Part shown: positions 27,052 to 48,825 of the stretch, piece after piece
Layout: each line of letters starts with the position of its first letter
How positions within the stretch are numbered: the stretch's first letter is position 1
Origin: Anaerolineae bacterium
Lineage (GTDB): Bacteria; Chloroflexota; Anaerolineae; Aggregatilineales; Phototrophicaceae
Direction of reading: 5' to 3'
DNA: 64,000 nt
NCBI GenBank assembly: GCA_013360465.1
Contig: JABWBO010000026.1
Location: 1-64,000 of the forward strand
Made by a program: the position numbers and the translations under genes
The notes under the pieces: generated by a model
Told to the model about the DNA's origin: nothing
What the model saw: the letters and a program-made list of their open reading frames with translations, nothing else
Database searches by the model: none

Positions 27052-27684
27052 ATGGCGCTTCCCAAGATCAGTCCGGCGCTGACGCCTGCCGAAGCCGCCG
27101 AGCCGTCGCAGGAGGTTCCGCCCCCTGCCAGTGTGCGGCGCGTCTCGGTGCAGGAATTTCTCGACATGCACGAGAGAGGTGTTTTCACGGCGGACGACCG
27201 GCTGGAACTGCTCGAAGGATGGATTGTCGAGAAAATGACCAAGAAACCCCCGCGCCTAAGCAGTGCTGACCGCTTGCTCTACGCGCTCCTACCGCGCCTG
27301 CAGCCCGGTTTTCTCCTGCGCCAGGAATCGCCCGTCGTCATGGAGCGCAGCATTCCCGAACCGGATTTCTGCATCCTGCGCGGAACACTTGAGGATTTCG
27401 CAGCGCGTCTGCCAACGCCATCAGACGTCGCCCTGGTCATCGAGATCTCCGACGCCACGCTGGCGAACGACCGCACCACCAAGCGCCGGCTCTACGCCGC
27501 CGCCGGCATCCCCGTCTACTGGCTGGTCAAGCTGACCGACCGGCAGATAGAAGTCTGCACGTCGCCCGATCCCGCGCACGCCCTCTACCGCCAGGTGACC
27601 ATCTTCACCCCCGACGCGGCGCTCCCCCTGGTGCTGGATGGGCAGGAAATCGCCCAGCTGCGCGCCGCCGACATCCTCCCTTAG
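27052..27684 (+). CDS. Uma2 family endonuclease-like protein
   Basis: A 210-residue Uma2 (DUF820) protein of the PD-(D/E)xK superfamily. Seen in order: SVQEFLDM, LLEGWIVEKM, IPEPDFCIL, VALVIEISDATLANDRTTKRRLYAAAGIPVYWLVKL. The acidic residues in EPD and EIS fit the nuclease site, though the second part lacks a clear ExK Lys (E-I-S). Such genes are abundant in Cyanobacteria and Chloroflexota; most have no proven role. Its TAG abuts the GTG of the TIR-KAP gene, with no gap, so the two form an operon. A shared defence role is an inference. Confidence 0.85.
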   Translation: MALPKISPALTPAEAAEPSQEVPPPASVRRVSVQEFLDMHERGVFTADDRLELLEGWIVEKMTKKPPRLSSADRLLYALLPRLQPGFLLRQESPVVMERSIPEPDFCILRGTLEDFAARLPTPSDVALVIEISDATLANDRTTKRRLYAAAGIPVYWLVKLTDRQIEVCTSPDPAHALYRQVTIFTPDAALPLVLDGQEIAQLRAADILP

Positions 27685-27711
27685 GTGACGCGGAAGGCGG
27701 AATCCATCCCC

Positions 27712-30114
27712 ATGAGGCTGAGTCCACAGATCTTCATCTCCTATTCCCGGCGCGATTCGCTCTTCGCCGAACAGATCGTGCGCTTCCTACGCGAAGCCGG
27801 CTTGGTCGTCTGGTGGGATCAGGACATCACGGCGGGCAGGTCGTGGCAGGACGCCATACAGGAAGAGCTGGACTTCAGCAAGGCGATGATCGTCATTGTC
27901 TCGCCAGACTCGATGGCATCAACCTACGTCCGCTCGGAATACGGCGGATTCCTGGCGAGCGGAAAGACCGTCATCCCCGTCATGGTGAGCGACACGCCCC
28001 AGATGCCGCCCGAACTCCGGGCGCGGCAGTGGATCGACATGCGCGGCGGCGTCACCGACCAAGGCATCGAGCGGCTGCAAGCGGCGCTGCAAGCGGCGCT
28101 CTTCCCGCGTTACGTCAGCGAGACCCCGTACCCCGACCAGCGTCCGCCGGCTGACCAGGAAGCGGCGGAAGCCGTCAGCGAAATCGACCGGGAGGAAGCA
28201 GTCGAGGACGCGGAAGCCGTGCCGTTGGGGGAAGGCGCGCCGGGTGCAGGACTGCCCATGCCGGAACCGACGCCGCTGCTCACCCCGGAACCCCAGCAGA
28301 ACGCAGCAGCAGCCGAAGCGCGCAAGTTGGAGATCGTCACCCGCGCCCTCTCCGACAAACCGACGGAAAATGATCTGCTCGGCTTCGACGAGTACGCCAG
28401 GGCGATTGCCGGTTTCATCCTGCACGAACGCACCGAGAAGCCGCTGACCATCGCCATCAATGCCCCCTGGGGCAGCGGCAAATCCAGCCTGATGCACATG
28501 ATCCGCGCGGAACTGCGCCGCCGCGCTCAAGGGGCGACGCCGGGGAACGGCGACAGTGCGAACGACAGGCGTTCGCCCCTGGCGTCGGTCTGGTTCAACG
28601 CCTGGAAGTACGACGAAGAGGAGACACTGTGGGCGGCGCTGGCGCTGGAAGCCATCCGTCAGGTGGCTGACCAGTACGATCTGCTGGACCGCCTGTGGTT
28701 CAAACTGCGGCTGAACGGGTTCGACTGGCGGCGTCTGCTGATCGACCTGCTGCGCGCGCTGTTGTCGATGGCTGCCGTCGCCGCGCTGGCGCTGCTGGTC
28801 CTGCTGCTGGTGGGCATCCTGGCAGGGACGCCGCCCGAAACGCTGCTGCGCGATATCGTCGGTCCGGTCGTGTTCGGCGGCGGCGTCGTCGCCCTGTACC
28901 AGTTCGGCAGGAGCATCGTTCAGGGGTCCAGGGACCTGCTGAACCTGCGCATCGAACGCTACACCCGCCAGCAGCCCGACTATCAGGCGAAGATCGGTTT
29001 TCTGGCGGAATTCGAGCAGGATTTCAGCCGTCTGGTCAGAGTCGTGACGCAGAACGGCAAGTATCCGCTGGTCATCTTCATCGACGATCTCGACCGCTGC
29101 GCCGTCCCCAAAGCCGCCGACCTGATGGAGGCGATCAACATCATCCTGAACATGGATCACTGCGTCTTCATCATCGGCATGGACGTCCGCACCGTCGCCG
29201 CCAGCATCGAGGTGCGCTACGAGAAGCTGCGTCCCTATCTCGCCGCCAACGGCGGCTCAGCTTCGCTGCTGGGGCAGCAGTTTCTCGAAAAGATCATCCA
29301 GATCGTCTTCCCCATCCCTCAGCCAACACGGCATTCGATGGAACGCTTCGTGGCGGGCAATCTGGAGCAGCAGGACGCCGCAGGGGCTGCCGCTCGCCCG
29401 GCGCAGCAGGTGGTCGATGCGGTCAAAGGGCGAATCGCCGAAGCGCCAGGAGAACTGACCTCCGCCAAGACCATCGAAGCGCGGGTCAGCCAACTGGACC
29501 TGGAGGCGCTGGAGGGCTTGGACGACGACGGCGGCGCGCTGCGCAAGGCGGTCATCGAACAGCTCATCCTGGAGAACTTCGACAGCCTGGGCGAAGTCAA
29601 GCAGATCGTCATGGATATGCTGGACTTCCTGGAATACAACCCGCGTCGGGTGAAGCGCTTCATCAACGTCTTCCGTCTGCAAGCCTTCATCGCCGTCGGG
29701 CGCGGGGCGCTGAACACCTCGAATCAGCTCAAAGCGTTGGGCGCCTGCCTGCAGATCGCCTTCCGCTGGCCCGAATTCGCCCGCCGGGTCCTGGACGCGC
29801 CGCAGCTGGATAACGATCTGCACTTCGTGGCGACCACCGCGCCGCTTCTGGGGCAGATCACCGACCCGGCGCGGCGTCAGGAGGTTCAGCAGCAGCTTCA
29901 GAAGCCGAGCGCCGACCCCGTCGTGCAGTATTTCGCCCGCCTGCCGGACGCTGAAGACCTGGTAGCGCTGCTGCCGGCGACCACGCCGCTCAGCGATGAG
30001 GAAGCGGCGCACATCTTCCTGCTGGTCCTGCAGATTGCTGCCAGTACCCCCATCGTCTGGACGCCGCCGACTGCCGAGCGCGGCAGCGCTGCGGGAGTCC
30101 TGCCCTGGACCTGA
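27712..30114 (+). CDS. TIR-KAP NTPase fusion, membrane-inserted
   Basis: An 800-residue protein. Residues 1-140 are a TIR domain (IFISYSRRDS, WWDQDITAG, IVIVSPDSMASTYVRSEY). A Pro/Glu-rich linker (150-210) leads to a KAP P-loop NTPase: Walker A APWGSGKSS near 251 and Walker B VIFIDDLDRC near 454. Two hydrophobic segments (about 349-398) split the NTPase, as in KAP proteins anchored to the membrane. The residue that is the catalytic Glu in NAD-cleaving TIRs (after the aromatic in AG-xW) is Gln (SWQDAI), so NADase activity is doubtful. ATG 27712 has a purine-rich ribosome site; GTG 27685 would add nine residues. KAP proteins include PifA, a phage-exclusion protein. Confidence 0.88.
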   Translation: MRLSPQIFISYSRRDSLFAEQIVRFLREAGLVVWWDQDITAGRSWQDAIQEELDFSKAMIVIVSPDSMASTYVRSEYGGFLASGKTVIPVMVSDTPQMPPELRARQWIDMRGGVTDQGIERLQAALQAALFPRYVSETPYPDQRPPADQEAAEAVSEIDREEAVEDAEAVPLGEGAPGAGLPMPEPTPLLTPEPQQNAAAAEARKLEIVTRALSDKPTENDLLGFDEYARAIAGFILHERTEKPLTIAINAPWGSGKSSLMHMIRAELRRRAQGATPGNGDSANDRRSPLASVWFNAWKYDEEETLWAALALEAIRQVADQYDLLDRLWFKLRLNGFDWRRLLIDLLRALLSMAAVAALALLVLLLVGILAGTPPETLLRDIVGPVVFGGGVVALYQFGRSIVQGSRDLLNLRIERYTRQQPDYQAKIGFLAEFEQDFSRLVRVVTQNGKYPLVIFIDDLDRCAVPKAADLMEAINIILNMDHCVFIIGMDVRTVAASIEVRYEKLRPYLAANGGSASLLGQQFLEKIIQIVFPIPQPTRHSMERFVAGNLEQQDAAGAAARPAQQVVDAVKGRIAEAPGELTSAKTIEARVSQLDLEALEGLDDDGGALRKAVIEQLILENFDSLGEVKQIVMDMLDFLEYNPRRVKRFINVFRLQAFIAVGRGALNTSNQLKALGACLQIAFRWPEFARRVLDAPQLDNDLHFVATTAPLLGQITDPARRQEVQQQLQKPSADPVVQYFARLPDAEDLVALLPATTPLSDEEAAHIFLLVLQIAASTPIVWTPPTAERGSAAGVLPWT

Positions 30115-38712: not shown

Positions 38713-39975
38713 TTACGGGATCGCGACCGTGAACGTCCAGGGTCCGGCGAATTTCTCCTTGAAGACGTCGAACGCCTCTTCGACCGCGCGCCCGACATCG
38801 ACGCCGTCGGGCGCGCCGACGATGCTGTAGTTGAAGCCCTCGCCGCCGGCGTCCGTGACATCTACCGCAATTCCCTGGGCGCGCAGGACCTCCTCGAAGC
38901 GCTGCGCTCTGTCTGCGGTGAAGTCCATCGAGGTCTCTAGCGCAGCAGCCGTGATGGTGAACGTCGTCGGCTCCAACAGGTACGGCGCGTAGAAGGTTGC
39001 GGTCCCACACCGCCGCGTCTCGCCGGGCACGGGCAGATCCTGCATCCCCCATCCCGCCAGGAACGCCTCAGTTTCGCCCGCCGTCAGCGTCACGTCGGGC
39101 ATCCAGTCGTCAGGCGTCGGCAGATCGAAGCAGAGATCGACAACCGTCATCGACGGCGTGACCGACATCCGCTCCAGGGTCATCGTCACGCCGTTGGCTT
39201 CGACGGTCTGTGTCGGGGTCAGTTCGAGCGCCGGGATGAACGGCAGATCGAACTCGAAGACGAACGGTCCAACCTGTTCGCCGGAAACAGACCCCATCGG
39301 CAGCCTGATACCGGGAGCCGGTGTCGCCTCTTCAGCCGAGCTGCTGCCGCCGCCATAGCCGAATCCCCCCCCAGAGCCGGTCACGACCCCACCCCCTTCT
39401 GCCATCGGCGTTTCGACTTCGGGCAGAAAGCCGAGCGTCATCTCCAGGCGCATGTGCAGCACCTCCGGCGCATCATCGAAGAAGGTCACGCCATAGGAAG
39501 CGATATACTGCGCCTCGCTCAGGTCGCCGCTCCCACCCCCGCCGCCAATGCCATCCATCGTGAAACTGCCGGCGTCGTCGGTCAGCATAACGCTTTGATC
39601 CATCGGTGCGCCTTGCAGGCGTTCCGGCGGCGTCAAGCTGTAGCCGATGGCGATTCGATTGGCGTCGGCATATGCCCAGTCCAGCATCAGGGTCACATCG
39701 GCGATGGTCTGGCTGATCCCCAGCTCGGTGACCAGGTCCGCCGCCATCGCCCCCTCAATGCCCGGATCAAACACCTGAAAGCGCGCTACGGCAAACGCCG
39801 CCGCCGCCGCCAGCATCATGAAGAGGGAAGCCAGCACCAGCGACATGCTGCGCGTGGTCCGGGCGCGGCGCGGCGGTGTCAGTTCAGCTTTCATGTTTTC
39901 CCACAGAGTCATGTTGTCCGCTATCTCCTGTCTAGCGATATCTTGCAGGTACTCGCGGATACGCTGCTCATTCAT
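38713..39975 (-). CDS. Membrane-anchored putative anti-sigma/DUF4179-like protein
   Basis: A 420-residue protein just after an ECF sigma gene (two bases between stop and start). A short N-terminal cytoplasmic part (MNEQRIREYLQDIARQEIADNMTLWENMKAEL) is followed by one membrane helix (MSLVLASLFMMLAAAAAFAVARF) and a long outer region. A Gly/Ser-rich low-complexity stretch (GGGVVTGSGGGFGYGGGSSS) sits around 205-235. This is the layout of DUF4179-type anti-sigma or sensing proteins. No zinc finger is seen. GGGAGG precedes ATG 39975. Confidence 0.75.
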   Translation of the reverse strand: MNEQRIREYLQDIARQEIADNMTLWENMKAELTPPRRARTTRSMSLVLASLFMMLAAAAAFAVARFQVFDPGIEGAMAADLVTELGISQTIADVTLMLDWAYADANRIAIGYSLTPPERLQGAPMDQSVMLTDDAGSFTMDGIGGGGGSGDLSEAQYIASYGVTFFDDAPEVLHMRLEMTLGFLPEVETPMAEGGGVVTGSGGGFGYGGGSSSAEEATPAPGIRLPMGSVSGEQVGPFVFEFDLPFIPALELTPTQTVEANGVTMTLERMSVTPSMTVVDLCFDLPTPDDWMPDVTLTAGETEAFLAGWGMQDLPVPGETRRCGTATFYAPYLLEPTTFTITAAALETSMDFTADRAQRFEEVLRAQGIAVDVTDAGGEGFNYSIVGAPDGVDVGRAVEEAFDVFKEKFAGPWTFTVAIP

Positions 39976-39977
39976 CT

Positions 39978-40532
39978 TCAGCCCTCCCCTGTCCATCTCT
40001 GAAGCAGTCCGCGAAGCTGTTTGCGGGCGGCGTGCAGACGCCACTTGATCGTTCCAGTCGGAACTGCCAGCAAATCAGACATCTCCATCTCGCTCAGGTC
40101 GAGGTAATAGCGCATGACGATGGCGGCGCGCTGTTCCGGCGAAAGCGCCAGCAGCGCGCGGCGCACCGTCTCCCGCAGTTCCGATGCCTCCACTTCGTCC
40201 TGTGGATCGGGCGCATCGGCGTTGAGCAGCATATCCCAGTCGGGCGCATCGTCCGCCAGCGGCATCTGCCGCCCGGCGCGCCGGGCAGCCTGCACCGCCT
40301 CGTTGACGACGATACGCAAAAAATAGGGCGCAAACGGGCGGCGCACGTCGAAGCGCTCTATGGAGCGGTAAACGCGCAGATACGCCGCCTGCACCACGTC
40401 TTCAGCCAGCGCCCGGTCGTGGGTGATGAGGTAAGCGGTGCGCACCGCCTGCACCTGGTATTTCTGAACCAGCGCCTCTAGCCCCCCGATGTCGCCGCTC
40501 TTGAGCTGCTTTATGGACTGGAGATCCTCCAA
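39978..40532 (-). CDS. ECF-type RNA polymerase sigma factor
   Basis: A 184-residue sigma-70 family (ECF) factor. Region 2 spans about 20-90 (ALAEDVVQAAYLRVYRSIERFD) and region 4 about 125-180 (LLALSPEQRAAIVMRYYLDLSEMEMSDLLAVPTGTIKWRLHAARKQL). Translation starts at TTG 40532, seven bases after AGGAGG. It is coupled to the downstream membrane protein, which probably holds it inactive until a signal arrives. Confidence 0.92.
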   Translation of the reverse strand: MEDLQSIKQLKSGDIGGLEALVQKYQVQAVRTAYLITHDRALAEDVVQAAYLRVYRSIERFDVRRPFAPYFLRIVVNEAVQAARRAGRQMPLADDAPDWDMLLNADAPDPQDEVEASELRETVRRALLALSPEQRAAIVMRYYLDLSEMEMSDLLAVPTGTIKWRLHAARKQLRGLLQRWTGEG

Positions 40533-40826: not shown

Positions 40827-42389
40827 TCAGCCGGCGTCGCCCAGTCGGTGGGCGTCCACGATCTGACCCGCTCGGACCAGCTTCTCCATCGTCCGCATGT
40901 GCGGGTACATCACCGTGTCGCGGGCGATGAACGGTACGCTGCGGCGGATCAGTTCGTAGACCGGCGCGGTCCCCTTCCCCAGGCGGGTGTCTCGCCCCAT
41001 CACCTCGCGCCGGAAGTCGATGCCCTGCGCCGCCGCCATCAGCTCCAGCGCCAGGATGCGCTCCACGTTGTCATGGATGCGCCGCGCCTTGACCGCCGCC
41101 GTCGCCCCCATGCTGACGTGATCCTCGACATTGGCGCTGGTCGGGATGGTATCGACGCTGGCGGGGTGCGCCAGAATCTTGCTCTCGGTCGCCAGCGCCG
41201 CCGCCGTGTACTGCACGATCATGAAACCGCTGTTCAGTCCACCGTCAGGGGTTAGAAATGCCGGCAGCGTGCCGACGTTGCTCGCTTCGTCGATCAGCCG
41301 CATGATCCGCCGCTCGCTGATGTTGCCCAGCTCGCTCATCGCCAGACCCAGATAATCCAGGCAGATCGCCAGCGGCTCACCGTGAAAATTGCCGCCGCTG
41401 ATCACATCGATGTGCCCCGTCGCCTCGTCGATGAAGATCAGCGGGTTGTCGGTGACGGCGTTCAGTTCGATCTCGAAGACCCAGCGGGCATAGGCGATGG
41501 CGTCGCGTACCGCGCCGTGTACCTGAGGGATGCAGCGCAGCGTATAGGCATCCTGGACGTTGGTCGGGTCATAGCCGCGCGTGAACTGACTGCCTTCGAG
41601 GATGGCGCGCAAATCGGCGGCGCAGTCCACCTGACGTGGGAAGGGGCGCAGCGCGTGCAGCCGGGCGTCGAACGCCATTGGCGTGCCGTGCAGCGCCTCC
41701 AGCGACAGGCAGGCGGCGAGGTCACCGGTGGCGTAGAGCATTTCGGCGCGGTGCGTCTCCAGCACGCCAAGCGCGCACATGATGGTCGTGCCGTTGGTCA
41801 GCGCCAGTCCTTCTTTTGCCGCCAGGGCGACCGGCGACAGACCGGCGCGGCGCATCGCCTCCGCGCCGCTCAGCACGACGCCGCGATATTCCGCCTCGCC
41901 TTCGCCGATCAGCGGCAGCGCCATGTGCGCCAGTGGGGCGAGATCGCCCGATGCGCCGAGCGACCCCTTTTCCGGGATGACCGGATGCACCCCCCGGTTG
42001 AGCATCGCCAGCAGCAGTTCCAGCGTCTCCAGACGGATGCCGCTGTGTCCTTTCGCCAGCGTGTTGGCGCGGATCAGCATGATCGCCCGCACCGTCTCGG
42101 TGTCCAGCGGCGCGCCCACCCCGACGGCGTGGCTGACCAGGATGTTGTACTGAAGCTGTTCGACCTGATCGGGCGGGATCACCCGGTCCTTGAACGCGCC
42201 GAAGCCGGTGGTGATGCCGTAGGCGACCGCGCCGTCGTCGATCAGCCGGCGCACGGCGTCGGCGGCGCGGCGCACTGCTCCTTTCGCCGCGGCGCTCAGC
42301 ACGACTTCCAGGGTCCCCGGTTCGGCGTGGGCGGCGGCGATCACGTCATCGAAGGTCAGCGATCCGCCATCGATCACCAGCTGTGCCAT
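40827..42389 (-). CDS. hutH: Histidine ammonia-lyase
   Basis: Removes ammonia from histidine to give urocanate, the first step of histidine use. The 520-residue protein has the MIO-forming Ala146-Ser147-Gly148 in GSLGASGDLAPLAHMALP, plus VGVGAPLDTE and QDAYTLRCIPQVHG motifs. Length is normal. It is the last gene of the hut set; its start lies 16 bases inside hutI, so translation is coupled. The operon order on this strand is hutG, hutU, (foreign gene), hutI, hutH. Confidence 0.94.
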   Translation of the reverse strand: MAQLVIDGGSLTFDDVIAAAHAEPGTLEVVLSAAAKGAVRRAADAVRRLIDDGAVAYGITTGFGAFKDRVIPPDQVEQLQYNILVSHAVGVGAPLDTETVRAIMLIRANTLAKGHSGIRLETLELLLAMLNRGVHPVIPEKGSLGASGDLAPLAHMALPLIGEGEAEYRGVVLSGAEAMRRAGLSPVALAAKEGLALTNGTTIMCALGVLETHRAEMLYATGDLAACLSLEALHGTPMAFDARLHALRPFPRQVDCAADLRAILEGSQFTRGYDPTNVQDAYTLRCIPQVHGAVRDAIAYARWVFEIELNAVTDNPLIFIDEATGHIDVISGGNFHGEPLAICLDYLGLAMSELGNISERRIMRLIDEASNVGTLPAFLTPDGGLNSGFMIVQYTAAALATESKILAHPASVDTIPTSANVEDHVSMGATAAVKARRIHDNVERILALELMAAAQGIDFRREVMGRDTRLGKGTAPVYELIRRSVPFIARDTVMYPHMRTMEKLVRAGQIVDAHRLGDAG

Positions 42390-43654
42390 AGCAGCGCTCC
42401 TTTGGCGCCGACGCGCCAGATCGGGTTGCCCCCAAATTCATAGGCGGCGGCGCGATAGTCGGGTTCGTTGAGGATGAGCAGGTCCGCCTGCTTGCCGACC
42501 TCGATGGAGCCGATCCGCCCGCCCATGCCGATGGCATAAGCGGCGTTCAGGGTGACGGCGTTCAGCGCTTCGGCGGGCGTCAGCTTCTGGTAGCGGCAGG
42601 CAATCGCCATCGTCATCGGGATGCTGGTGGTCGGAGCGCTGCCGGGGTTATAGTCGGTCGCCAGCGCCAGGATGCCGCCGGCGTCGATCAGGCGGCGCGC
42701 ACTGCCGTAGTGATGGCTCCCCAGGTTGAAATTGACCGCCGGCAGCATGATGCCGACGGTCTTCGAAGCCGCCAGCCGCTCCAGTTCGTGGTCCGGCGTC
42801 ACGTCCAGGTGATCGACCGAGACGGCATCCAGCGCGACCGCCATCGGCACGCCGCCCAGATTGACGAACTCATCGACATGCGCCTTCGCCGCCATGCCGA
42901 GCGCCTGCCCGGCTTGCAGGATGCGCCGCGCCTGATCGACATCGAAGACGCCCTGCTCGCAGAAGACATCGACGAACAGCGGCGTCCCCTGGCGGGCGAA
43001 CCACGAAGCGGCGTACCAGGCGCGCACGGCGGGCAGCATGACCTCGATGACATGGCGGGTGTAGGACTCGGCATCCGGGAATTCCGGCGGGACGGCATGC
43101 GCGCCCAGAAAGGTCGGCAGCAGGCGCATGGGGTAGCGCTCGGCAGCCCAGTCGATGACCTCCAACAGGCGCACCTCGGTCTCGACATCCAGCCCGTAGC
43201 CGGTCTTGATCTCGGCGGTGGTCGTGCCGGTCTGCATCATCCGCTCGATGCGTTCCAGCAGCGTCTCACGCAGATCGTCCAGTGAGGCGGCGCGGGTGGC
43301 GCGCATGGTCTTGCGGATGCCGCCGCCCGCCGCCATGATCTCCATGTAGGTCGCGCCGCTCAGCCGCATTTCGAACTCGTCCAGGCGGTTGCCGGCGAAG
43401 ATGGCGTGCGTGTGGCAGTCCACAAAGCCGGGGATGACCGCCCGCCTCCGGCAGTCCTCATGATTCTCGCTGCGATAGATGCGCAGCAGGTCCTCGCTCT
43501 TCCCGACGGCAACGATCACGCCGTCCTGGGCGGCGAGCGCCGCGCCCTCGATAATGCCGAGATCGCGCATCGCTGCGCCGCGCTTCGGCGCGCCTGAGCC
43601 GGCGCAGGTCACCAGCTGGGTGATATTGGTGAGCAGTAAATCGACTGATTCCAT
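42374..43654 (-). CDS. hutI: Imidazolonepropionase
   Basis: A 426-residue amidohydrolase that opens the imidazolonepropionate ring to N-formimidoylglutamate. Metal and substrate motifs are present: FVDCHTHAIFAGNR, TTTAEIKTGYGLDVETE, AHVDEFVNLGG and ALATDYNPGSAPT. ATG 43654 gives the usual N-terminus; the open frame beyond it runs into the AT-rich upstream gap and is not coding. No strong ribosome site is seen. The upstream neighbour on the other strand is the CpaE-TIR gene. Confidence 0.94.
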   Translation of the reverse strand: MESVDLLLTNITQLVTCAGSGAPKRGAAMRDLGIIEGAALAAQDGVIVAVGKSEDLLRIYRSENHEDCRRRAVIPGFVDCHTHAIFAGNRLDEFEMRLSGATYMEIMAAGGGIRKTMRATRAASLDDLRETLLERIERMMQTGTTTAEIKTGYGLDVETEVRLLEVIDWAAERYPMRLLPTFLGAHAVPPEFPDAESYTRHVIEVMLPAVRAWYAASWFARQGTPLFVDVFCEQGVFDVDQARRILQAGQALGMAAKAHVDEFVNLGGVPMAVALDAVSVDHLDVTPDHELERLAASKTVGIMLPAVNFNLGSHHYGSARRLIDAGGILALATDYNPGSAPTTSIPMTMAIACRYQKLTPAEALNAVTLNAAYAIGMGGRIGSIEVGKQADLLILNEPDYRAAAYEFGGNPIWRVGAKGALLWHSW

Positions 43655-43769
43655 AAGCGATACTTTCAACCTTTCCTGCCCTGATTTTAGCCCTTCATCA
43701 TCGCGATGCGATATATTCAACAAATATCCAATCGAATTGCATAATCTTACCTCTGGGGAGTTGAGCAAT

Positions 43770-46073
43770 ATGGGGCATATCATCGCGGTACACAGCGCAA
43801 GCGGCGGCGCGGGCTGCACGACGGTGGCGGTCAACCTCGCAGCGCGATTCCCCACGCACGGGGCGCGGTCCTTGTTGATTGATTTGAGTCTGCCCTATGC
43901 CGACGTAGGCGTGATGCTGAATCTGCGAAGCAGCGCCACAGTGATCGACGCGCTGGTAGATTCAACCGACCCCGAACATCTCGAAGCCTGTACGACGGTC
44001 TACGAGAATGGGCTGCGCGTCCTCACTGCTCCGTCTCATCCGGCAGACGCAGATCAAGTCACCTCCGAGCAGATTGAGAAACTGCTGACTTTGGCTGCTG
44101 ACCTCTATGATTTCATCGTGGTCGATGTGGGGCATCACCTGAATAAAACAGCTTTGACAGTAATCGATAGGGCATCGGTCATTGTGCTGGTGATCATGCC
44201 GACGTTAACCGGGGTAAAAAATGCGCGCTTGGCGCTTGATCTGTTCAAGCAGCTGGCGTATCCATCGGAGAAAATCGTCACCGTCGTCAACCACGTTGAT
44301 GATGAATTAGCCTCAAAGAAACTCAACGTCGATATGAAACGGATCGAGCAATACCTGCATGTAGCGCTGGATGCTCGACTGCCAAACGACACCGCTTCCG
44401 CTTTGGGCGCGCTCAATAAAGGCATACCACCTGTATTCCGGCACGGCGCTGACGACACGTCACTCGATACTGCACTCATCCACTTGAGCGATTTTGTCTT
44501 CAAGATGCTGGTGTACGGTGAAGACGAAACGCCGCAGCCCGCTGTCAGATTAGAAAGCAGCGCAGAGCGCACACCTCGACGTTCCAGTCGTCCTCAATCA
44601 CCCATCGGTCGCGAGGCAGGTCGGACGATCAGCGTCTTCATAGTCGATGAAATCCCAGAAACTGCAGCCAATCTCACCAAGCTGCTGGCATTCGAAAGCG
44701 ATTTCAAAGTGGTCGGATCCGCCGCTTCAGGCATGGAATGTGTCGAGAAAGCGCTCCGTCTACAGCCGGACATCATCCTGCTTGACGCCACTTTGCCAGA
44801 CATCGACGGCACTCCCCTTGCTAAACGCCTGCTGACCGAGCTTCCCACAGCCGCCATCATCATGATGGGGGTCCTCAGCACGGTCGAGGTCTTGCAGAAG
44901 GCAATGCAGTCCGGCGGGCGGCATTATCTCGTAAAACCTATCGCCCCGGACGAACTCTACCAATCTATTCGCGCTGCCTATCAGTTCCAGAGCGCGACGT
45001 TGCATTTCGATGCGTCCCCTTTGCAAGAGTCTGTGCGTCATGCCTCTGCGTCTACGAGCGGGTTGAACCTGCGCCCAACCCCAGACAAGAACGCCGCACT
45101 GGAGCTTCTACCGGTCGAAGAAGCCAAGATGAGCAAATTGCCGACGCGCGGCTTGTTCTCCTACGACTACCACTCAGGTGGAGGATCGCCAGCGCCTCAA
45201 GCCGCGCCGCCAGAGATGGCGCGCACCCTCTTCTCGGCATACTATCCTCGCCAAGCCTTTGCAGGGCGCAAACATGGGCTTTATGTTTATGCCCATGTCG
45301 AGGCTGCTGCCGCGCAGATGCAGCAGGATATTGGGAAGTTCAAAGAGGAACTTGGCGGGACGATTCCCCAAGCGAGGTCAGCAAAACAGACGGCGCAGGT
45401 CGCTTTTGGCACGCCGATCACTATCACGCCGGAGTGTGAGGAACTTCAGTTCGAGCCGGCATCTTTGACAAAGCGCTGGCGTGGACCTTTTACGCGCTTC
45501 GACTTTGATTTTTACCCGACCGAGGAACCGATTGATGAAACCGTCATCGTGCGCGTTTCCGTGCGGATCGCCGGTATCGAAGTGGCATTCATCCGGTGCG
45601 GCATCGATATCGCCGCTGAAAGTGCGGCTTCCATTCATGTTGACCCCGAAGACGACAATCCCTTAGCGGCAGCCCGCTTTGCCAGTCAACATGCCGAGAG
45701 ATATCAGAGGATTTTCATCTCCTATTCACACAAGGACACCGAAGTGGCGCGCGCCTATCGTCTGGCACAAGTAGCGATGGGCAACGAAGTGTTTATCGAC
45801 GTAGATGGCTTGCACGCCGGAGAAAACTGGCAGGCAGCGCTGGCAAGGGCGATTGACACAGCCGACATCTTCCAGTTGTTCTGGTCGCCCAACTACGCCG
45901 AATCGGAGTTCTGCCGCTACGAATGGGACTACGCGCTCAAGTATCGCTGCGCCGACGACGGGTGCGAGAGTTTCATTCGCCCCGTCTATTGGGTTGATCC
46001 GATTCCCGCTCCGCCTCCACAGGAACTCAGCCACTTGAATTTCAAGTTTGTGCCGTTCAGCCAAAAGGCATAG
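43770..46073 (+). CDS. CpaE/MinD-like ATPase-REC-TIR fusion protein
   Basis: A 767-residue multidomain protein. Residues 1-245 are a MinD/CpaE-type ATPase, but the P-loop reads SGGAGCTT, with Cys where the GKT Lys stands and no deviant-Walker Lys, as in TadZ/CpaE pseudo-ATPases. Residues 286-405 are a response-receiver with phospho-acceptor D339 and K389 (YLVKPI). Residues about 480-640 form a strand-rich domain I do not recognise (YYPRQAFAGRKHGLYVYAH). Residues 647-735 are a TIR domain (RIFISYSHKDT, GLHAGENWQAAL, FWSPNYAESEFCRYEW) with Gln in place of the NADase Glu. ATG 43770 follows GGGGAG by nine bases. Its base composition is clearly poorer in GC than both flanks, and it splits the hut genes, suggesting insertion by transfer. 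Confidence 0.85.
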   Translation: MGHIIAVHSASGGAGCTTVAVNLAARFPTHGARSLLIDLSLPYADVGVMLNLRSSATVIDALVDSTDPEHLEACTTVYENGLRVLTAPSHPADADQVTSEQIEKLLTLAADLYDFIVVDVGHHLNKTALTVIDRASVIVLVIMPTLTGVKNARLALDLFKQLAYPSEKIVTVVNHVDDELASKKLNVDMKRIEQYLHVALDARLPNDTASALGALNKGIPPVFRHGADDTSLDTALIHLSDFVFKMLVYGEDETPQPAVRLESSAERTPRRSSRPQSPIGREAGRTISVFIVDEIPETAANLTKLLAFESDFKVVGSAASGMECVEKALRLQPDIILLDATLPDIDGTPLAKRLLTELPTAAIIMMGVLSTVEVLQKAMQSGGRHYLVKPIAPDELYQSIRAAYQFQSATLHFDASPLQESVRHASASTSGLNLRPTPDKNAALELLPVEEAKMSKLPTRGLFSYDYHSGGGSPAPQAAPPEMARTLFSAYYPRQAFAGRKHGLYVYAHVEAAAAQMQQDIGKFKEELGGTIPQARSAKQTAQVAFGTPITITPECEELQFEPASLTKRWRGPFTRFDFDFYPTEEPIDETVIVRVSVRIAGIEVAFIRCGIDIAAESAASIHVDPEDDNPLAAARFASQHAERYQRIFISYSHKDTEVARAYRLAQVAMGNEVFIDVDGLHAGENWQAALARAIDTADIFQLFWSPNYAESEFCRYEWDYALKYRCADDGCESFIRPVYWVDPIPAPPPQELSHLNFKFVPFSQKA

Positions 46074-46091: not shown

Positions 46092-47750
46092 TCATTTCAT
46101 CATCGGAATATCGACGCCGTTGGCTTTGGCGAAAGTAATCGCCTCATCGTAGCCGGCATCGGCATGGCGCACCACGCCCATGCCCGGATCGCTGGTCAGC
46201 ACCCGTTCCAGGCGGCGCGCCGCTTCCGGCGTGCCGTCGGCGACGATCACCTGTCCGGCGTGGATACTGTAGCCGATGCCCACGCCGCCGCCGTGATGCA
46301 GGCTCACCCAGGTCGCCCCGCCGACGGCGTTGACCAGCGCGTTCAGCAGGGGCCAGTCGGCGATGGCGTCGCTGCCATCTTTCATGCCTTCGGTCTCGCG
46401 GTTCGGGCTGGCGACCGATCCGCTGTCCAGGTGGTCGCGCCCGATGACGATAGGCGCTTTGACTTCGCCGCGCGCCACCATCTCGTTGAAGCGCAGCCCG
46501 GCTTTCGCCCGTTCGCCGTAGCCCAGCCAGCAGATGCGCGCCGGCAGCCCCTGGAAGACGATCTGCTCGCGCGCCATCGTGATCCAGCGGCGCAGGTGGT
46601 CGTCCTCCGGGAAAAGTTTGAGGATGGCGCGGTCGGTGGCGTAGATATCTTCCGGGTCGCCGGAGAGCGCCACCCAGCGGAAGGGACCTTTGCCCTCGCA
46701 GAACAGCGGGCGGATGTACGCCGGCACGAAACCGGGATAGGCGAAGGCGTCGGCGACGCCGTGATCGAACGCCCGCTGACGCAGGTTGTTGCCGTAGTCG
46801 AAGACGACCGCCCCTTTCGCCTTCCAGTCGAGCATCGCCTGGACGTGACGCGCCATCGAGTCCATCGCCCGCGCCCGGTAGGCGTCGGGGTCGCCGGCGC
46901 GCAGCGCGCCGGCGGCTTCGACGCTCATGCCCGCTGGGATATACCCATAGAGGACATCGTGCGCGCTGGTCTGGTCGGTGACCACATCCGGCACGACGCC
47001 GCGCGCCACCAGCTCCGGCAGCACCTCGCTGGCATTGGCGACCAGCCCGATGGATTTCGGCATCGGCACGGCAAGCGCTTCTTCGACCCAGGTCATCGCC
47101 TCTTCCAGGTCGTCGGTGATGGCGTCGATCTGCTTCAGATTCAGCCGCCGCTCCGCCCGCCAGCGGTCCACCTCGACGAACAAGCCGACACCCTCGTTCA
47201 TCGTCACGGCGAGCGGCTGCGCGCCGCCCATCTCGCCCAGACCGGCGGTGACGACGAACTTCCCCTTCAGCGATCCCCAGCCATGCTGGCGCGCCAGCGC
47301 GCCGAAGGTCTCGTAAGTGCCCTGTAAAATGCCCTGCGTGCCGATATAGATCCAGCTTCCCGCCGTCATCTGACCGTACATGATCAGCCCGTCGCGTTCC
47401 CAGCGGTCGAAGTTCGCCTGCGTCGCCCAGGCGGGGACGATGTTGCTGTTGGCGATCAGCACGCGCGGCGCATCGGCATGGGTGCGGAAGACGGCGACCG
47501 GCTTGCCTGACTGCACCAGCAGGGTCTCGTCCGGTTCCAGGCGGCGCAGGGCGTCGAGGATGGCGTCAAACGCTTCCCAACTGCGCGCCGCCCGCCCGCG
47601 CCCGCCGTAGACGATCAGGTGATCCGGGTCGAACGCCACTTCGGCATCGAGGTTGTTTTGCAGCATTCTGTAGGCGGCTTCGATCAGCCAGTTCTTGCAG
47701 GTCAGCGCCATGCCGGTAGGCGCTTTGACCGGGCGGGGGTGGTCAGCCAT
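46092..47750 (-). CDS. hutU: Urocanate hydratase
   Basis: Adds water to urocanate using bound NAD as an electrophile. The 552-residue protein has the NAD-binding [35 protein letters not shown] and [21 protein letters not shown] motifs and is full length. GGAG stands nine bases before ATG 47750. It is separated from hutG by 142 bases and from hutI by the opposite-strand insertion, so hutI/hutH may need their own promoter in the AT-rich gap at 43655-43769. Confidence 0.94.
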
Positions 47751-47892
47751 AAATCTTTACTCCAGGATGTCTCAAACAAGTACCCTGCATTTCAAGAAAG
47801 CGCGCCGCGTGTTTCCGACGGCGCACGAAAAAACGCAGGAAGCCGCGCAGCGCCTTGCCCAGGGGGCGACCCGACGGGAAACCCTCTTTATT

Positions 47893-48825
47893 TTAGCGGT
47901 TCTTGTATTCCCAGAGAAAGGTCCAGAGGGCGGTCGCCGCCAGGCGGCTGGTGCGGTCGTCGAGATCGTGCGCCGGGTTGACTTCGGTGATCTCGAACAG
48001 GCGGGTGCGGCGCTCCCTGCCGGCGGCGGCGGCGATGGCGCAGAATTCTTCGCCGGTGAAGCCGAGTGGGTTCGGCGCGCTCACGCCCGGCGCATCAGCG
48101 GCACGCACCACGTCCATATCCAGCCCCCAGAAGATCGTCCCTTCCACGCGCCGCGCCAGGATCGCCGTCAGGTAGTTCTCGACGCCGAAACGCCGCGCCT
48201 CACCGGCGGAGAAGACGTTGACGCCGATGTCGATCAACCATTGGCGGTAGGCGAGCGAATTCGCCTGCGGCTGGTAGCCGATCTCGAACAGGCTGAAGGG
48301 GTGTACGTACTCCTCGACGAGCAGCTGACGGTACGGCGTGCCGCTGTTACGCACCGGATCGGCACGCACATCGAAATGAGCATCGAAATTGAACGCCAGG
48401 ACCGAATCACGGGTTTCCATCGCCAGCGCCGAACAATCTGGATAGCTGGTGTCGTTGCCGCCGCCCAGGACGATCATCATTTTGCCGTCGCGCAGCACCT
48501 GGCGTACCACCTCGCGGTGGCTGTCGTGAGTCGCTTCCAGCGTGGCGTGAATTTTGGTGTTGCCCAGGTCGAACAGGCGCATACCGGGGATGTCGATGAA
48601 GCGGTAGAAGGCGCGGCGAATGGCATCCGGCGCATCCTTCGCGCCAGGGCGACCGCGATTACGCCGCACGCCGTCGTCCTGCGGCAGCCCCAAGAGGACG
48701 ACTTCGGACAACCCGTAATCGACGGGAAGCGAAAGGGCAGTTTCACCTAAACGCGGATCATTTGTGTCGCCACGGCGGTAGAAGAGGTCGGCATCGGGGC
48801 GCGTGGTCTCCTGAAACAGGTTCAA
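47893..48825 (-). CDS. hutG: Formimidoylglutamase-like arginase-family hydrolase
   Basis: A 310-residue ureohydrolase-fold enzyme. Two of the three metal motifs are standard: NFDAHFDVR and GLDMDVV. The first, normally GGGHxxxxG, reads GGGNDTSYP, so the first-ligand His is Asn. Some formimidoylglutamases differ here. Clustering with hutU, hutI and hutH supports formimidoylglutamate hydrolysis to glutamate and formamide. It starts at TTG 48825, seven bases after AAAGGA. Confidence 0.88.
   Translation of the reverse strand: MNLFQETTRPDADLFYRRGDTNDPRLGETALSLPVDYGLSEVVLLGLPQDDGVRRNRGRPGAKDAPDAIRRAFYRFIDIPGMRLFDLGNTKIHATLEATHDSHREVVRQVLRDGKMMIVLGGGNDTSYPDCSALAMETRDSVLAFNFDAHFDVRADPVRNSGTPYRQLLVEEYVHPFSLFEIGYQPQANSLAYRQWLIDIGVNVFSAGEARRFGVENYLTAILARRVEGTIFWGLDMDVVRAADAPGVSAPNPLGFTGEEFCAIAAAAGRERRTRLFEITEVNPAHDLDDRTSRLAATALWTFLWEYKNR

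Follow-up and report, generated by a model that had tools for sequence, protein, structure and literature searches.

Gene Organization of the Locus

The gene studied here occupies positions 43770..46073 (+) of the window, by which we mean the whole 64,000-nucleotide stretch of DNA that was analysed. It is a complete open reading frame for a protein of 767 amino acids, in which an ATPase domain, a receiver domain, a linker, a middle domain (MID), and a TIR domain follow one another. GGGGAG, a Shine-Dalgarno-like sequence at 43755-43760, lies 9 nt 5' of the start at 43770 and supports that start. The N-terminus, MGHIIAV, is identical in the relative L030 of genome G147, which also backs this start. 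A Pfam search of the 767-aa protein matched AAA_31 at residues 3-145 (E 6e-9), Response_reg at residues 289-400 (E 5e-21), and TIR_2 at residues 648-756 (E 5e-18), with no match at approximately 410-640.

The fusion gene is flanked by two halves of a split hut operon, assigned by Pfam and synteny. The downstream half, hutH and hutI, is found at 40827..43585 (-), and the upstream half, hutU and hutG, at 46092..48825 (-). hutU and hutI are adjacent in seven genomes of the same genus (G016, G087, G088, G094, G111, G133, and G136), and in an eighth (G132) no hutI was detected beside hutU. In the source genome (G000) and in G112, the fusion gene lies between hutU and hutI on the opposite strand. 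Its GC content is 56% and its GC3 is 64%, versus about 67% and 86-88% for hutH, hutI, and hutU. Gene order and composition indicate that the fusion gene was acquired recently and horizontally and was inserted into the hut operon.

The first circumstance that the sequence-only reading had named as able to undo it was that two separate genes had been joined by an assembly error. The source assembly is indeed fragmented into 256 contigs, and few genomes have the four-domain order. However, G112, which is also of the genus, carries an ortholog (G112:C90; JAEURA010000328) that is 94% identical over all 767 aa and occupies the same site, which makes an assembly chimera very unlikely. The frame contains no stop codons, and MID and TIR appear to be under purifying selection, which also argues against a decaying pseudogene. 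The chimera was rejected on the ortholog and the conserved insertion site, and we give the chimera or pseudogene explanation a negligible probability. Pfam, the open reading frame, and the ortholog thus bear out the earlier description of a MinD/CpaE-like domain, a receiver, a beta-rich middle domain, and a TIR in one frame. The rarity expected of this order was also borne out, since only G000 and G112 among 98 genomes of the family contain the full fusion. At E <= 1e-58, the N-terminal half was found only in G000 among 396 genomes of the class, a sample whose results did not include G112. The open-access papers searched yielded no description of a TIR, CpaE, and receiver combination, and the one paper in which all three occur mentions each a single time. 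The fusion is real, rare, and recently acquired, and it is a variant of a modular kind of TIR effector.

The two orthologs differ in how their domains evolve, although omega was calculated from the single pair G000 and G112 with few substitutions. Omega is 0.04 for MID and 0.04 for TIR, with one nonsynonymous change each. In the same single pair, and again from small counts, it is 0.29 for the receiver, 0.51 for the ATPase, 1.3 for the linker, and 0.06 for hutU. These values place MID and TIR under strong purifying selection. Within the small counts of one pair, they suggest that the effector is held while the sensor drifts or adapts.

The neighbours of the fusion gene are metabolic, and they form no recognisable defence island. 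No RNA families or tRNAs were found within the window, and a scan for promoters and terminators around the gene stayed at or near chance level. An ECF-type sigma factor gene lies beside a gene for a DUF4179-like protein at 38713-40532 (-); the two are probably a sigma/anti-sigma pair. A second TIR-effector candidate is encoded in the window at 27685-30114 (+). This protein of 809 aa combines a TIR (residues 16-131) with a KAP P-loop NTPase (residues 234-664), and PADLOC matches it to QatA, PDC-S20, and PifA. A gene for a Uma2-family nuclease (27052-27684, +) is located directly 5' of it.

Origin of the ATPase and Receiver Domains

The MinD/ParA/CpaE-type ATPase domain (residues 1-250; 43770..44519, +) was assigned by Pfam AAA_31/ParA and by its identity of 35-42% to the TadZ proteins of relatives. 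The NCBIfam models minD_bact and CpaE_hom_Actino also match this domain, with scores below their cut-offs. The receiver domain (residues 285-405; 44622..44984, +), in addition to its Response_reg match, is 41-52% identical to TadZ receivers. The CpaE/TadZ ancestry proposed earlier for the N-terminal half is upheld by these identities, which indicate derivation from the TadZ/CpaE of Tad pili with the domain order reversed. TadZ/CpaE carries the receiver first and the ATPase second, whereas the fusion carries the ATPase first. Unlike TadZ/CpaE, the fusion gene also lies outside any tad operon, its receiver has diverged, and MID and TIR are fused on.

The P-loop of the ATPase, SASGGAGCTT, spans residues 9-18 (43794-43823). 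Both Lys positions of the deviant Walker A motif have been lost (S11 and C16), and the Asp residues D38, D45, and D119 are retained. The sequence-only reading had singled out the missing P-loop Lys. The loss is genuine, but it is shared with ordinary relatives. In the canonical TadZ proteins examined in the order, the P-loop Lys position is K, C, T, A, or V, and the signature Lys is replaced by Q, S, or A. A special meaning of the missing Lys was rejected on this ground, as its loss is tolerated in TadZ/CpaE and in the fusion alike. Whether an ATPase with neither Walker A Lys binds nucleotide is uncertain. A search of the open-access literature for TadZ with Walker A and receiver found nothing.

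The linker (residues 406-484; 44985..45221, +) evolves fast, with an omega of about 1.3. Its motif TRGLFSY (residues 459-465) resembles, by eye, the C-terminal tails of TadZ (RLFGG, GLFGK) and is possibly shared with them. In canonical TadZ of the order, such as L002, L132, and L135, the Walker A lysines vary freely, and the basic tail at the C-terminus, [KR]xGLGLRLGK or RLFGG, is conserved.

With a profile of the N-terminal half, the ATPase was found ahead of the receiver in 3 of 154 genomes of the order, namely G000, G112, and G147. The G147 protein, L030 (L127 3026-4609), is an orphan of 527 aa with a proline-rich tail and with neither MID nor TIR. It has the linker motif RPxPDKxAA in common with the fusion. 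In the ATPase tree, the proteins of these three genomes cluster (98/99), with a long-branch warning; in the receiver tree, their receivers are not joined, and the branch of the fusion receiver is long. These sequences make it likely that the reversed order arose only once. The N-terminal segment of another protein, L025, showed no significant similarity to the fusion receiver, and its homology was rejected.

These relationships bear on the idea that the protein guards the Tad pilus or serves as its integrated decoy. The half that resembles TadZ would mimic or bind the cell's own Tad machine and free the TIR upon attack by a pilus-using phage or another agent. Both N-terminal domains are derived from TadZ, and evolution is faster in the sensor half than in the effector. 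The source genome also has an ordinary, intact Tad operon, located on a different contig, whose TadZ is canonical, with the receiver before the ATPase. However, the domain order is reversed, the ATPase falls in a clade apart from the TadZ of its own genome, the fusion gene is not near tad genes, and G147 has an ATPase-receiver protein with no TIR at all. We regard a Tad guard as improbable.

Receiver Chemistry and Phosphorylation

The sequence-only reading took the receiver to be complete. The residues it named, D339 (44784-44786) and K389, are in place, but the Ser/Thr position of beta-4 is Gly (MMG), and the acid pair D293/E294 is D-E rather than D-D. In TadZ receivers of the order, the corresponding residues are almost always D-D, D, S, and K. 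The phosphorylation control proposed with it fares similarly. The retained D339 and K389 keep it possible, and the Gly at the switch position, the dead receiver of L030 (D to Q and K to S), and the lack of a histidine kinase gene adjoining the fusion gene weaken it.

In its fullest form, this proposal makes the protein a signalling factor localised at the pole or membrane. The receiver would be phosphorylated by a histidine kinase whose gene lies elsewhere and would gate the TIR, with a regulatory, non-lethal output. In addition to D339 and K389, the retained acidic pair and the receiver omega of 0.29 speak for it. Against it, the receiver branch is long, and the receiver of the closest architectural relative is dead, which adds to the altered beta-4 position and the absence of an adjoining partner kinase. 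We consider such phospho-signalling unlikely.

The TIR Domain Is a Probable NADase

The TIR domain (residues 645-767; 45702..46070, +) was assigned by Pfam TIR_2 and by a structure match. E718, in the motif CRYEW (45921-45923), is at the position of the catalytic Glu, and Glu is found there in 60/60 relatives. Profile alignments to PDB sequences place the third-helix motif of the family, SxxxxxE, on the corresponding motif of Roq1 and RUN1. This Glu is catalytic in SARM1 (E642), RUN1 (E100), and prokaryotic TIRs (PMC7282519). According to the same work, all prokaryotic TIRs examined need it, and self-association promotes their activity (PMC7282519).

The sequence-only reading had reported Gln in place of Glu in this domain. 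This was a misreading. The Gln in question is Q702 (FQLFWS), an invariant residue at another position. The suggestion of altered chemistry or a scaffold, which was drawn from the Gln, fails because a catalytic-type Glu is present and invariant, and the scaffold reading by this route was rejected.

A structure of MID-TIR predicted by AlphaFold2 had a mean pLDDT of 86. In VIA-align comparisons, the predicted TIR is nearest to SPARTA TIR-APAZ (Z 16.4), AbTir (15.0), and SARM1 (13.9). The TIRs of SPARTA, AbTir, and SARM1 are NADases. Some TIRs act as scaffolds, and a non-catalytic TIR that recruits partners would be in keeping with this general knowledge. Both the invariant Glu and the nearness of the fold to NADase TIRs oppose it here, and we judge a scaffold very unlikely. 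Since E718 is present, with Glu in all 60 relatives, an NADase effector is likelier than a scaffold, and the TIR module probably destroys NAD+.

Among bacterial TIR NADase effectors, SPARTA TIR-APAZ, AbTir, and SpbK share the TIR fold with the fusion (Z 13.7-16.4). The position of the catalytic Glu is common to the fusion, SPARTA TIR-APAZ, AbTir, SpbK, and Cat1, the last compared by sequence only. Unlike SPARTA, AbTir, Cat1, and SpbK, the fusion has no Ago/APAZ or CARF partner, its sensor is derived from TadZ, and MID precedes its TIR. PADLOC and NCBIfam gave only TIR-level matches to the fusion. The NCBIfam models for Thoeris type III ThcB4 and for FxsC TIR-like proteins show similarity at this level only (E ~1e-9), with scores of 37.5 and 38.5 bits that lie below the curated cut-offs of 220 and 130.

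The Middle Domain

MID (residues 485-620; 45222..45629, +) is predicted to be an Ig-like beta-sandwich with one helix and belongs to no Pfam family, as expected from the earlier mention of an unrecognised beta-rich middle domain. AlphaFold2 modelled MID alone with a pLDDT of 94.5. The best VIA-align match of this model is ankyrin-B ZU5-ZU5-UPA-DD (residues 1294-1423), with Z 10.8 and 118 residues aligned. NLRP1 FIIND (Z 10.2, 110 aligned) and UNC5b (Z 9.4, 122 aligned) are also among the top 21 matches. The matched ranges of ankyrin-B, NLRP1, and UNC5b are presumably their UPA parts. Over all UPA matches, the predicted fold aligns over 108-122 residues with Z 8.9-10.8; generic Ig-like domains reach Z 8.8-10.3 over ~92-103 residues, on par with the UPA matches.

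UPA and MID each directly precede an effector or assembly domain. They differ in that they have no sequence similarity and that no ZU5 partner is seen with MID. None of 60 MID sequences matched UPA in Pfam at E <= 1, and the MID sequence was linked to no family of Pfam or the PDB. No literature on prokaryotic UPA domains was found. The likeness of the modelled MID fold to the UPA of NLRP1, UNC5, and ankyrin is suggestive only. A bolder reading makes MID a bacterial UPA-type domain and UPA-TIR an ancient, widely traded cassette. It would be the prokaryotic counterpart of the animal UPA-CARD (NLRP1, CARD8) and UPA-death-domain (UNC5, ankyrin) modules, captured and triggered here by a rearranged Tad-pilus localisation protein. 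We offer this as speculation of rather low probability.

MID-TIR as an Exchangeable Effector Module

The MID-TIR module (residues 485-767) is patchily distributed in Chloroflexota, Actinomycetota, Planctomycetota, Verrucomicrobiota, Acidobacteriota, and other phyla, and occurs in 15 of 400 genomes of the source genome's phylum (E 1e-40). The source genome is rich in TIRs, with approximately 22 sites that match the TIR part of the family profile; the fusion gene alone matches the whole profile. Its N-terminal partners elsewhere include HEAT repeats (L023), FHA (L026), a YukD/ubiquitin-like domain (L031), and a second TIR (L039), and apparent membrane anchors precede it in L024, L033, and L037. 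All of 56 MID-TIR proteins from several phyla contain TIR_2. The domains that recur among them are kinase (7-8), HSP70 (7), FHA (5), WD40 (2), and CHAT (2). Judged by these architectures, MID-TIR is an effector module of wide occurrence whose N-terminal sensors are exchanged. Surveys of multi-domain conflict systems in multicellular bacteria, including Chloroflexi, describe TIR, FHA, and receiver domains as exchangeable parts (PMC7159879, PMC8195603), which fits the modular picture.

No recurrent neighbour gene was found beside MID-TIR, which fits a stand-alone system. A protein-kinase-like gene is located near MID-TIR in L063, L064, L102, and L104, and kinases are fused to MID-TIR elsewhere. 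MID-TIR was absent from phage records. Its mobile carriage comprises one distant cyanobacterial plasmid record, with most of the module, and one viral contig. The N-terminal half was absent from phage, plasmid, and viral records.

A Candidate One-Gene Shutdown Switch

We lean towards the view that the gene, gained by horizontal transfer, encodes a self-sufficient TIR effector whose most likely role is phage defence or another shutdown triggered by stress. Alarm and shutdown switch are probably united here in one gene, with a sensor of an unusual kind. CpaE/TadZ dimerises via its atypical ATPase domain (PMC13170226). Contacts between dimers are thought to run through the receivers, and membrane binding is the task of a C-terminal helix (PMC13170226). 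By analogy with CpaE, the ATPase-receiver half of the fusion may serve as a unit for conditional dimerisation and for localisation to the membrane or a complex, and a position at the pole or membrane may be expected. Nucleotide binding, a change in the receiver, or contact with the envelope or the pilus machine would act as the trigger and cluster the proteins. The MID domains may then relay or lock the assembly. The clustered TIRs would cleave NAD+, leading to its depletion or to an ADP-ribose signal.

Should this activity be confirmed, an ATPase of subcellular localisation would be one trigger of a cell shutdown that works through NAD+. Of broader interest are MID-TIR itself, a cassette both common and uncatalogued, and its possible relationship to UPA. 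The cassette is widespread and, as a unit, absent from Pfam and NCBIfam, and one of its sensors comes from the machinery that positions pili. The UPA resemblance, if real, would make MID the prokaryotic kin of a domain that in animals occurs in inflammasome and death-receptor proteins.
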